From positions 1 to 16,033 of the forward strand of contig JAQVLS010000011.1 in the NCBI GenBank assembly GCA_028704035.1: DNA of 16,033 nt. Reading direction: 5' to 3'. The position numbers and the translations under genes were made by a program. The DNA is from Desulfotomaculaceae bacterium (GTDB lineage Bacteria; Bacillota; Desulfotomaculia; Desulfotomaculales; Pelotomaculaceae). The notes beneath the pieces were generated by a model. The model saw only the letters and a program-made list of their open reading frames with translations. It searched no databases and was not told where the DNA came from. Position 1 is the stretch's first letter; each line of letters starts with the position of its first letter. Below are positions 6,093-13,996 of the stretch, in pieces.

Positions 6093-6123
6093 TTTAAACA
6101 GATATATTTTTGGGGTGGAAACG

Positions 6124-6993
6124 GTGGACCGTTTACTTTTTGTCTTTCTGCTTACTGCTTTTATCAACCTGGTCAATACTTTAACCCGCAGCTCCCGTCT
6201 TTCAGGAGTGAGGACGAAGCACCTGGCTACCGCCATCTCGCTTTTTAGTGTCGTTTACCTGGCGGCCAGTTTTGCCAACACCCTTCAGGCCCCCCTGTTG
6301 GCCTCGACAGTAGAGAGTACTATCGAAAACGCTTATAATCAATCCCTGCTAATATCTCCGGGCAGCGTCATCGAGAGTCCGTTATACCAGGAAACACTGG
6401 TAGAATTGAGCCGCAAGCTCCGCTTTGTTATCCTGGGCGCCACACTTGGCACGGCAGCAGGTATTTTGGTGATCCCCAGTTTTGTCACTTCTTTTTCCAA
6501 CGCGATTAGAACATTCGGCCAGACCGGCTCAGTATTCAAGGTAATATTCCTCTTTTTCATAACAATGTTTAAGCCGGGCAGCGGCATGCTCAGATTCAGG
6601 ATGTCCTCTTGGGATACGTTCCGAAAGTTGCTTACTAGAAAAATGAGCATCCCTAAAGGTTTTCTTTACTGGAACCTGGCCAGCTACAGCCTGTGGACGG
6701 TCAACGTGCTGTCCGGTCTATATGCCGGCGCCCTTTACCCGGAATTTCGCTCAACTGCGGTGTTGATGGCTTCCATAGTAGGCAACGCCGCTATTGTCGT
6801 CAACGTGATGATGGTTGACCCTCTCCTGGCCAGGGTAACTGATGACGTGGCCAGCGGGGTAAAAGACGAAATAGAATTAAAGCAGATTATTTTTTTCCTC
6901 GCCATTTCCAATCTGCTGGGCACACTTTTAAGCCAGGCTGTATTTGAGCCTGTGGCCTGGGGCCTGCAGTATCTAACCAGGTGGATTACTTAA
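6124..6993 (+). CDS. amj: Lipid II flippase, Amj family
   Basis: The product resembles Amj (formerly DUF2837), an integral membrane protein that moves lipid-linked peptidoglycan precursor across the cytoplasmic membrane as an alternative to MurJ. I chose the GTG at 6124 because GGGGTGG at 6112-6118 lies just upstream; the GTG at 6115 would overlap that site. This gives 289 residues. The hydrophobic N-terminus LLFVFLLTAFINLVNTLTR runs into a conserved SSRLSGVRTKHLATA stretch. Later hydrophobic segments include ILGATLGTAAGILVIPSF, IFLFFITMF, a YWNLASYSLWTVNVLSGLY segment, VLMASIVGNAAIVVNV and IIFFLAISNLLGTLL, about six helices in all. It precedes the amidase cwlD, which fits an envelope role. 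Family assignment is by recalled sequence pattern. Confidence 0.8.
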   Translation: MDRLLFVFLLTAFINLVNTLTRSSRLSGVRTKHLATAISLFSVVYLAASFANTLQAPLLASTVESTIENAYNQSLLISPGSVIESPLYQETLVELSRKLRFVILGATLGTAAGILVIPSFVTSFSNAIRTFGQTGSVFKVIFLFFITMFKPGSGMLRFRMSSWDTFRKLLTRKMSIPKGFLYWNLASYSLWTVNVLSGLYAGALYPEFRSTAVLMASIVGNAAIVVNVMMVDPLLARVTDDVASGVKDEIELKQIIFFLAISNLLGTLLSQAVFEPVAWGLQYLTRWIT

Positions 6994-8088: not shown

Positions 8089-8117
8089 TTGACATGTTAT
8101 TACCATTTTGCTAATAT
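8089..8117 (+). promoter_or_regulatory. Strong promoter for the DUF1659-DUF2922-YvrJ operon
   Basis: A perfect TTGACA at 8089-8094 is 17 bp from TAATAT at 8112-8117. TG at 8109-8110 adds an extended -10 element. The expected transcript start is near 8124, giving a leader of about 120 nt before the first small gene. Confidence 0.85.
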
Positions 8118-8133
8118 AGCAGTAGAACATATG

Positions 8134-8183
8134 TTTGGGGCGGGCAAATATATAACATTTACCTGCCCCAAATGTTTTATTTT
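8134..8183 (+). terminator. Attenuator-like hairpin in the small-protein operon leader
   Basis: TTTGGGGCGGG at 8134-8144 pairs with CCTGCCCCAAA at 8162-8172, an 11-bp stem with one G-U pair and a 17-nt A/T-rich loop. TGTTTTATTTT follows. It lies about 10 nt after the predicted transcript start and before the first gene, so it may be an attenuator or the end of a short transcript of about 60 nt. No alternative antiterminator pairing was identified. Confidence 0.6.
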
Positions 8184-8247
8184 GCCCCCTCAAACAACAT
8201 TAAGAGATGAAGGTGAAAAAGCCTTCACCAGATAAGGAGGTGAAATA

Positions 8248-8472
8248 GTGGCAATAAACAAGGTTCCCACAGGTTCTGTGCTCAAGCTGGTATTCAATGT
8301 TGGAATTGGCAACAATGGCAACCCGGTTTTTCGCACCAAAAGCCTGAACAATGTAAAGTCCACCGCGACTGATCAGGATCTTTTCGACGTAGCCGCAACG
8401 GTTGCCGATATGATGGATTACACGCTAAGCGGTATTTCCCGCGTCGACAACGCCCAGCTGGCAGAGGACTAA
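8248..8472 (+). CDS. DUF1659 family small protein
   Basis: This is a 74-residue protein of unknown function. Its pattern VLKLVFNVGIGNNGNPVFRTKS followed by a helix-like DLFDVAATVADMMDY fits DUF1659, a family of small Firmicute proteins that commonly sit beside DUF2922 and YvrJ genes. There is no signal peptide, membrane segment, cysteine or catalytic motif. A beta-hairpin, helix, beta arrangement is suggested by the alternating pattern. The GTG start at 8248 follows a full AAGGAGGTGA at 8234-8243, implying high expression. It is the first gene of a three-gene operon; DUF2922 starts 44 nt downstream across an A/T-rich gap holding the palindrome AATTATTAATAATT (8481-8494). The family name is recalled from pattern; no function is claimed. 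Confidence 0.85.
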   Translation: MAINKVPTGSVLKLVFNVGIGNNGNPVFRTKSLNNVKSTATDQDLFDVAATVADMMDYTLSGISRVDNAQLAED

Positions 8473-8516
8473 TATACGCTAATTATTAATAATTATTGTA
8501 GAAAGGAGGGAGCGTA

Positions 8517-8750
8517 TTGGCAGCTACCAGCAAAACACTGCGCATGGTTTTCAAGAGCCAGACCGGGAGAAACGTTACCATTACCCTGGACAACCCCCGC
8601 AACGACTTGACCGGCACTGAGATTGAAGCAGCCATGGAACTGATTATTGCCCGGAATATCTTCAACAGTTCGGGCGGTGATTTGGTGTCCAAGCAGGACA
8701 TCAAGATTATTGACACCACTACAGACGACCTTTACGACCCGCCCGCCTAG
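8517..8750 (+). CDS. DUF2922 family small protein
   Basis: This is a 77-residue protein of unknown function fitting DUF2922. The N-terminal TLRMVFKSQTGRNVTITLDN is followed by the conserved turn NDLTGTEIEAAMELIIARNIF and the C-terminal DIKIIDTTTDDLYD. It lacks cysteines, membrane segments and a signal peptide. Translation starts at TTG 8517 after AAAGGAGGG at 8502-8510. Its layout resembles the preceding DUF1659 protein (an L-x-x-V-F strand, a G-N turn, a central helix, a final strand), so the two may be distant homologues or form a heteromer; that is my inference. It lies between DUF1659 and YvrJ in one transcription unit. Confidence 0.85.
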   Translation: MAATSKTLRMVFKSQTGRNVTITLDNPRNDLTGTEIEAAMELIIARNIFNSSGGDLVSKQDIKIIDTTTDDLYDPPA

Positions 8751-8775
8751 GACACGGGCGTTAACATAAATTAAG

Positions 8776-8807
8776 CCGGGCTGGAGGATTTCCACCTCCC
8801 CGCCCGG
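8776..8807 (+). other. Intercistronic GC-rich hairpin before yvrJ
   Basis: CCGGGC at 8776-8781 pairs with GCCCGG at 8802-8807, and the inner GGAGG at 8783-8787 pairs with CCTCC at 8795-8799, around a 7-nt loop. No T-run follows, so it is unlikely to terminate fully. It may set the 3' end or stability of the DUF1659-DUF2922 message, or reduce yvrJ expression. Confidence 0.65.
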
Positions 8808-8849
8808 TGCGCGATCCCAAAGTTTAAACAAAGAAAAGGAGTGGTTTAA

Positions 8850-8993
8850 CTGGAAGCTATCCTGCAGGCGGTGGGTAACGTCGGCTTTCCCATAGCCGTA
8901 GCCGCGTATCTGCTGGTGCGCATCGAAGGCAAGCTGGAAGCGCTGGCAGCCAGTATTGCCAGGCTGGCCGAAGCAGTAGCGGGTGAGCGGTAG
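8850..8993 (+). CDS. YvrJ family small membrane protein, apparent CTG start
   Basis: A 47-residue protein fits the YvrJ family. The N-terminal NVGFPIAVAAYLLVRI (residues 10-25) is one hydrophobic helix, followed by an amphipathic, charged tail EGKLEALAASIARLAEAVAGE that could form a coiled coil. The only start that fits both the AAGGAGTGG ribosome binding site (8836-8844) and the family N-terminus is CTG at 8850. The GTG at 8841 is in frame but is followed two codons later by TAA, and the next GTG (8871) would remove conserved residues. The topology resembles small holin-like or bacteriocin-associated proteins, but this is only a shape comparison. It ends the small-protein operon; a 12-bp hairpin follows. 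Confidence 0.8.
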   Translation: MEAILQAVGNVGFPIAVAAYLLVRIEGKLEALAASIARLAEAVAGER

Positions 8994-9024
8994 CAGGAAA
9001 AGAGAAATTCGCGTGGAGCTGAAG

Positions 9025-9055
9025 AAGAGCCGCCGGCATAAAACCGGCGGCTCTT
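9025..9055 (+). terminator. Hairpin terminator of the small-protein operon
   Basis: AAGAGCCGCCGG at 9025-9036 is perfectly complementary to CCGGCGGCTCTT at 9044-9055 with a 7-nt loop. The stem is very stable, but only a short CTCTT precedes GC, so termination may rely on the stem or be incomplete. Confidence 0.65.
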
Positions 9056-13769: not shown

Positions 13770-13791
13770 TAGGTTGTTAAAAAAATATTTT

Positions 13792-13996
13792 CTTCGTTAG
13801 GTGAGGCTTCTACACAGACACATGCCACTGCCCGGAAATGTCGAGAGACGCCGACGGGTTAACAGGTACTGCCGGCTTAAGGTTTTACTTAATGTGGCTG
13901 GGTTTGACCCTAGCTGTGTACGTGTCAAAACTTTCACGAGTGGAGAAGGTTTTCTGCGCATATTGGAAAAACCTTCTATTTAATGAGGGTTTTTTT
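13792..13996 (+). promoter_or_regulatory. M-box (ykoK leader) Mg2+ riboswitch with terminator platform
   Basis: The aptamer at about 13792-13948 contains the strongly conserved M-box blocks: CGTTAGGTGAGGCT, ACTGCCCGGAAATGTCGAGA, GACGCC, GGGTTAACAGGTACTG, CTTAAGGTTTT, CTTAATGTGGCT and ACGAGTGGAG. P1 is CTTC 13792-13795 with GAAG 13945-13948. Two exclusive hairpins follow. The antiterminator pairs AGAAGGTTTT (13944-13953) with AAAACCTTCT (13968-13977). The terminator pairs AAAAACCTTC (13967-13976) with GAGGGTTTTT (13985-13994) and ends in a T-run to 13996. Since P1 uses part of the antiterminator arm, Mg2+ binding should favour termination, as known for B. subtilis mgtE. Confidence 0.95.
13967..13996 (+). 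terminator. Conditional terminator of the M-box riboswitch
   Basis: A 10-bp stem (13967-13976 with 13985-13994, one T-G wobble) with the 8-nt loop TATTTAAT, running into seven T residues. Its left arm is shared with the antiterminator. Confidence 0.88.

Follow-up and report, generated by a model that had tools for sequence, protein, structure and literature searches.

The window, by which we mean the whole stretch of 16,033 nucleotides, comes from a Bacillota assembly of 250 contigs and 83.9% completeness (G000), and carries at positions 8089-9055 a three-gene operon encoding DUF1659, DUF2922 and YvrJ family proteins (Table 1). The three window proteins match their Pfam families with E-values of 2.1e-23, 1.4e-26 and 8e-19, respectively, all above the curated cut-offs (82.4 against 24.1 bits for DUF1659, 92.6 against 25.5 for DUF2922 and 67.4 against 29.5 for YvrJ). 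The genes lie where an earlier note on this DNA had placed them, with the unusual start codons it had read and a Shine-Dalgarno sequence before each. For the CTG start of YvrJ, support comes from its own Shine-Dalgarno sequence and from its first residues, which align with those of Met-starting relatives. The surrounding genes are, as we take it from their translations, pgk, tpi, the genes of phosphoglycerate mutase and enolase, and ribosomal protein genes, whereas Pfam identifies amj (PF10997) and an Amidase_3 gene upstream of the operon and a GalE-like epimerase gene downstream. The amj gene, for an alternate MurJ flippase, occupies positions 6115-6993 just 5' of the amidase gene. The sole Rfam match in the window is an M-box magnesium riboswitch (13786-13951, 143 bits), followed by what is presumably a magnesium transporter gene; the leader of the operon has no Rfam match.

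Table 1. Genes and sequence elements of the operon in window coordinates
Feature	Position	Strand	Details and basis
SigA-type promoter	8089..8117	+	TTGACA-17-TAATAT, TG before -10; 10/12 matches
LexA-like box AGAACATATGTTTG	8124..8137	+	One mismatch to CGAACNNNNGTTYG; six bases past -10
Attenuator-like leader	8131..8194	+	Mutually exclusive hairpins; folding
Shine-Dalgarno AAGGAGGTG of DUF1659 gene	8234..8242	+	Sequence reading
DUF1659 gene (PF07872)	8248..8472	+	74 aa, GTG start
Shine-Dalgarno AAGGAGG ahead of DUF2922 gene	8503-8509		Sequence reading
DUF2922 gene (PF11148)	8517..8750	+	77 aa, TTG start
GC-rich intercistronic hairpin	about 8775..8808	+	Folds
Shine-Dalgarno AAGGAG ahead of YvrJ gene	8836-8841		Sequence reading
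YvrJ gene (PF12841)	8850..8993	+	47 aa, CTG start; holin-like
12-bp perfect hairpin without T run	9025..9055	+	Hairpin search

The promoter with an extended -10 element reported in the earlier note was recovered, although its score by itself is not rare, with three promoter-like sites in the stretch against 1.7 expected from shuffled sequences. The attenuator-like hairpin also folds (8131-8175, -22.5 kcal/mol) and runs into a U-rich stretch, and folding yields an alternative hairpin (8142-8188) that excludes it. Given two mutually exclusive leader hairpins, one of them with a U-rich tail, attenuation is possible. The GC-rich hairpin between the second and third genes folds as described. The 12-bp hairpin past YvrJ is likewise real, but its reading as a terminator lacks support, given the missing T run and its absence from the terminator scan.

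Searches of 398 Bacillota genomes and 14 control genomes with the three Pfam models found DUF1659 in 195, DUF2922 in 194 and YvrJ in 161 of the 398. The two DUF families occur together in 194 genomes, with DUF1659 alone in one and DUF2922 alone in none; these co-occurrence lists were compiled by hand from the search listings, and the accompanying Fisher tests ignore ancestry. DUF2922 is accompanied by YvrJ in 144 genomes and lacks it in 50, and 17 of the 161 genomes with YvrJ are devoid of the pair. Among the controls, Thermotoga maritima matches both DUFs and Bacillus subtilis only YvrJ. We further compared 97 loci, comprising six plasmid loci, 11 viral loci and 80 named genome loci found with YvrJ. 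All three families are present in 75 of them, always in the order DUF1659-DUF2922-YvrJ on one strand, and the remainder consist of 21 loci with YvrJ alone (including the 11 viral ones) and one in which the pair occurs twice. A separate set of 80 survey loci was hand-picked from the stronger matches listed, mostly one or two per family, two of which are without DUF2922. The recurrence of the trio in Firmicutes, as stated in the earlier note, is that of a linked set.

The pair is also found on plasmids (L092-L097), and tyrosine recombinase, replication and SSB genes lie near it in several of these six records. Five genomes (G181, G346, G386, G029 and G272) hold four or more, up to eight, DUF1659/DUF2922 copies each, perhaps on mobile elements. 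In addition, a small protein with CxxC pairs (64-78 aa) follows DUF2922 on two plasmids and one chromosome (L092:9300-9533, L096 and L235).

Full-text searches of open-licence papers returned one that names DUF1659, none that treats DUF2922 and none with phrases for the families, an absence there that does not equal absence in print. The Amidase_3 gene preceding the trio, which we take to be CwlD-like, would suit a sporulation-related operon. Such a role also accords with a passage of a domain-frequency study that names DUF1659 in its sporulation cluster (PMC2955703). However, the recurrent neighbours of the loci include no sporulation gene. Both DUFs are present in Thermotoga maritima, presumably a non-sporulator, and neither in Bacillus subtilis, and we regard a sporulation operon as very improbable.

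AlphaFold models, built with 32 sequences each, predict the same strand-strand-helix-strand layout for DUF1659 (pLDDT 88.9) and DUF2922 (pLDDT 81.5), in agreement with the similar layout proposed earlier for the two soluble proteins. A BLASTP comparison of the two gives an E-value of 0.022 over 16 residues, and profile comparison aligns them in register over 41 columns with an E-value of 0.0027 and a probability of only 11%; a common origin is likely but unproven. Sequence comparison against solved structures gave no match for DUF1659 and one chance match for DUF2922 (0.12), and a fold comparison of the DUF1659 model found none at an E-value of 0.001 or below, the best being 1.5e-2.

From its sequence and alignment, the window YvrJ would have a single short helix in the membrane and, after it, a charged tail of amphipathic character. 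Small BhlA/TpeE-like holins are described as a short N-terminal membrane helix and an amphipathic charged tail in passages of PMC9527704. The window protein matches the PHROG family phrog_4898, annotated as 'lysis, holin', weakly (1.5e-4), and viral YvrJ proteins match it better (3.9e-8 for L099 and 3e-6 for L104); Pfam BhlA is unmatched by the window protein at E-values up to 0.1. A search of phage records with the YvrJ of L064 retrieved two places, both in the phage KonjoTrouble, plus two weak matches to gokushoviruses and nothing else. The KonjoTrouble protein gp33 is called 'holin' in RefSeq and 'hypothetical' in the original record, and scores just below the Pfam YvrJ cut-off (28.3 against 29.5 bits, 1.3e-6). 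Its gene sits between two genes annotated as endolysins, and the gene next to it encodes a GH25 endolysin. Taken together, these similarities suggest that YvrJ is probably a small holin.

Phage holin-endolysin cassettes, represented by the phrog_4898 holin, KonjoTrouble gp33 and PF05105 holins, are among the closest known systems, with a YvrJ-like protein taking the holin place beside endolysins. In the viral loci L098 and L105/L104, YvrJ has an Amidase_2 gene one or two genes away. Some viral YvrJ loci are not lysis cassettes: in L101, L103 and L106 YvrJ is followed by a membrane protein of 104-107 aa and then by capsid-looking genes, and no lysis gene was seen in L100 and L107. A membrane protein of 103-127 aa directly follows phage YvrJ in seven of the 11 viral loci (L099 and L101-L106), and is possibly a second holin-like protein. 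Unlike the phage cassettes, the operon is mostly chromosomal, and the DUF1659/DUF2922 pair is absent from all 11 viral YvrJ loci and went undetected in the phage collection at the sensitivity applied. Two queries found no DUF2922 in that collection and none was confirmed in viral contigs, while PHROG families 20302 and 21372 match DUF2922 weakly.

The position after DUF2922 can also be occupied by other holin families. Among the 50 trio-family genomes that lack YvrJ, a PF05105 holin directly follows DUF2922 in seven, six of which come from one family (L224/L281, L221/L292, L222/L291, L290, L293, L294 and L301), and precedes DUF1659 in one more (L284); any PF05105 match is found in 23 of the 50. 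Holins of phrog_13712 take the same slot in L191 (1.6e-10) and L194 (1.9e-4). For 17 of the 78 survey loci, the 2 kb after DUF2922 hold neither YvrJ nor any holin that the models recognise, so the pair can exist without an adjacent holin. A coiled-coil membrane protein of 69 aa that fills this slot in L194 and L195 was considered as XhlA-like, but this is unsupported by Pfam and it was not counted.

Wall hydrolases are recurrent neighbours. In many loci an Amidase_2, M15 or Amidase_3 gene follows YvrJ, often a few bases past its stop codon. Across 77 trio genomes, the Pfam model found 72 Amidase_2 genes in 45 genomes, and 18 of these genes, each in a different genome, are encoded on the strand of the trio and no more than 2 kb downstream of it, compared to 0.03 expected under uniform placement and ignoring shared ancestry. 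Models built locally place a hydrolase within 2 kb downstream in 23/78 survey loci (3/311 control tiles), 7/70 named loci (1/304) and two of the six plasmids (1/33), leaving 55 survey and 63 named loci without one, yet hydrolase and holin counts of this kind are biased because the models were built from the very neighbours counted. The Pfam-based count was therefore the one relied on. In the window, no hydrolase gene comes next downstream of the trio, and the Pfam search gave no Amidase_2 match in its genome. The five loci with perfect LexA-like boxes described below likewise have no hydrolase gene next downstream or linked, so that a lysis role at these loci and in the window remains a proposal.

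A small membrane protein with two soluble partners, found in part on plasmids, could also be read as an anti-phage or toxin-antitoxin device, with YvrJ as the membrane toxin and the two soluble proteins as its antitoxin. PADLOC, however, matched none of the three proteins, and the hydrolases and the replacement of the holin are better explained by lysis or secretion; we consider this the least probable of the readings weighed here. A YvrJ that sits in an exchangeable holin slot, and in some genomes next to hydrolases, fits a step that opens the membrane. The earlier note had ventured a holin- or bacteriocin-like device with soluble partners: the holin half gains from the phage homologues, the holin replacement and the adjacent hydrolases, whereas the bacteriocin half found no direct support.

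Three kinds of control, none of them raised in the earlier note, are associated with the operon. The first is a LexA-like box. AGAACATATGTTTG is the only site in the whole window that departs at no more than one base from the pattern CGAACNNNNGTTYG, which we take to be the LexA consensus, and the two closest relatives examined carry perfect boxes. In L199 and L200 the perfect box comes just after a TATAAT, a placement shared with the boxes of the window and of recA in the window genome, where recA and lexA each have a one-mismatch box. Perfect boxes occur in five of 157 upstream stretches (L199, L200, L207, L243, twice, and L249), compared to none in shuffled sequences and 0.45 in random tiles, and boxes within one mismatch in 11, compared to 1.7 and 2.7, respectively; the other 146 stretches have no box within one mismatch. 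In G252 and G276, CGAACNNNNGTTCG is found once per genome, at the trio, whereas the sole perfect CGAACNNNNGTTCG-type site of G000 lies away from it. No box was found at recA of G252, G276, G013 and G089 or at lexA of G089 and G113, and a looser pattern is no commoner genome-wide than its reversed control. The five perfect-box loci resemble the window in having YvrJ but no linked hydrolase, ComK-like or sigma factor gene.

The second is a sigma-70-like gene, located directly upstream in 34/70 named and 6/78 survey loci and exemplified by that of L113 (TIGR02937, 6.6e-23); the gene list and Pfam show no adjacent sigma factor gene in the window. Two loci without the trio, L279 and L280, have a PF05105 holin beside a sigma-like gene and resemble other sigma-holin pairs. 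The third is a ComK-like family of about 190 residues with no accepted name, whose model (A5) derives from genes neighbouring the trio, 26 members in all including L149:8754-9350. Twelve of the 26 match Pfam ComK at E-values up to 5 (best 2.5e-6), and the family lies mostly below Pfam recognition. It occurs in 140 of the 398 genomes, 135 of which also have DUF2922, and in at least 75 of the 139 genomes with a listed place the ComK-like gene is within 5 kb of a trio gene, a proximity whose random expectation assumes uniform placement and ignores shared ancestry. RecD2, ComF and YvyF genes often follow it. This family may be an overlooked competence-type regulator in Clostridia. Altogether, the sequence features around the operon point to stress as its control.

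The ComK-like neighbours raise the possibility of a competence helper, in which the pair would serve DNA uptake or the processing of the DNA taken in, and YvrJ, together with the amidase, would loosen wall and membrane locally without lysis. Besides the proximity itself, RecD2 and ComFC genes adjoin the ComK-like gene in many Clostridia, and in L215, L253 and L254, which lack YvrJ, the pair directly precedes RecD2 and ComF or ComK. In Bacillus subtilis, which unlike the trio genomes has YvrJ without either DUF by the Pfam models, yvrJ is likewise under an alternative sigma factor, as part of the SigO-RsoA regulon according to a passage of PMC8103513, and rsoA (8.7) and sigO (3.9) are among the changed genes listed for a competent subpopulation (PMC7317962, Table 1), although yvrJ itself is unnamed in the main text of that paper. 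However, the metK-recD2-comF neighbourhood may reflect an inherited position rather than function, no ComK-like match was obtained in the window genome and linked ones are mostly missing from the order to which it belongs, and the plasmid and phage contexts would be left unexplained. We consider a competence helper unlikely.

To our knowledge, the nearest published wiring is the UviA-UviB-Bcn5 system of Clostridium perfringens plasmids, which combines a sigma factor, a BhlA-family single-helix holin and an amidase (PMC9527704) and is induced by the SOS response with a LexA site (PMC4459074). Similar to that system, a sigma factor gene by a single-helix membrane protein, a nearby N-acetylmuramoyl-L-alanine amidase and a LexA-like site all occur around the operon, though each in its own subset of loci. 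A single locus seldom combines them all, and the window has the LexA-like box and the trio only. YvrJ also forms a Pfam family of its own and is preceded by two conserved soluble proteins, and no bacteriocin gene was noticed among the trio neighbours. The pair itself might be the cargo, that is, DUF1659 and DUF2922 would be an exported product, such as a two-part bacteriocin, freed by the holin. Such a reading draws on the same combination of sigma factor, holin, amidase and LexA site (PMC9527704, PMC4459074), on the plasmid occurrence and on the several copies in some genomes. Yet half of the sampled genomes conserve the pair, which is also chromosomal, no immunity gene was noticed, and neither known toxins nor PDB folds were matched (both proteins by sequence, DUF1659 alone by fold search). 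Bacteriocins usually vary more than this pair does, and release of a toxin-like cargo seems improbable to us.

We favour, with moderate confidence, a stress-controlled holin-type module for lysis or secretion that works with paired soluble partners; the interpretation offered in the earlier note is as a whole partly supported. In this module, YvrJ would insert into the cytoplasmic membrane by its short helix and amphipathic tail and open it in a controlled manner, as small BhlA/TpeE-type holins are supposed to do. A wall hydrolase or another cytoplasmic cargo would then cross the opened membrane, the hydrolase gene being adjacent in some relatives and presumably elsewhere in the genome for the window. 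As the pair is constant and the holin variable, we infer that DUF1659 and DUF2922 gate or load the holin; they would act as an obligate soluble pair, most likely on the cytoplasmic tail of YvrJ, restraining or triggering it. LexA probably represses the window promoter until DNA damage lifts the repression, and in other lineages a dedicated sigma factor or the ComK-like regulator would take over the role of LexA.

A broader version is tentative, and we think it doubtful: many Bacillota might possess a domesticated, stress-switched membrane opener, in which DUF1659/DUF2922 would be a universal gate for interchangeable holins under SOS, sigma-factor or ComK-like control, releasing DNA or hydrolases from a few cells so that competent neighbours profit. 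The ComK-like regulators seen in 140 of the 398 genomes are of interest for natural competence in Clostridia. Holins paired with conserved soluble partners would, as far as we know, be new, and DUF1659 and DUF2922, families without an assigned role that are found in 194 of the 398 genomes, would gain their first testable role.
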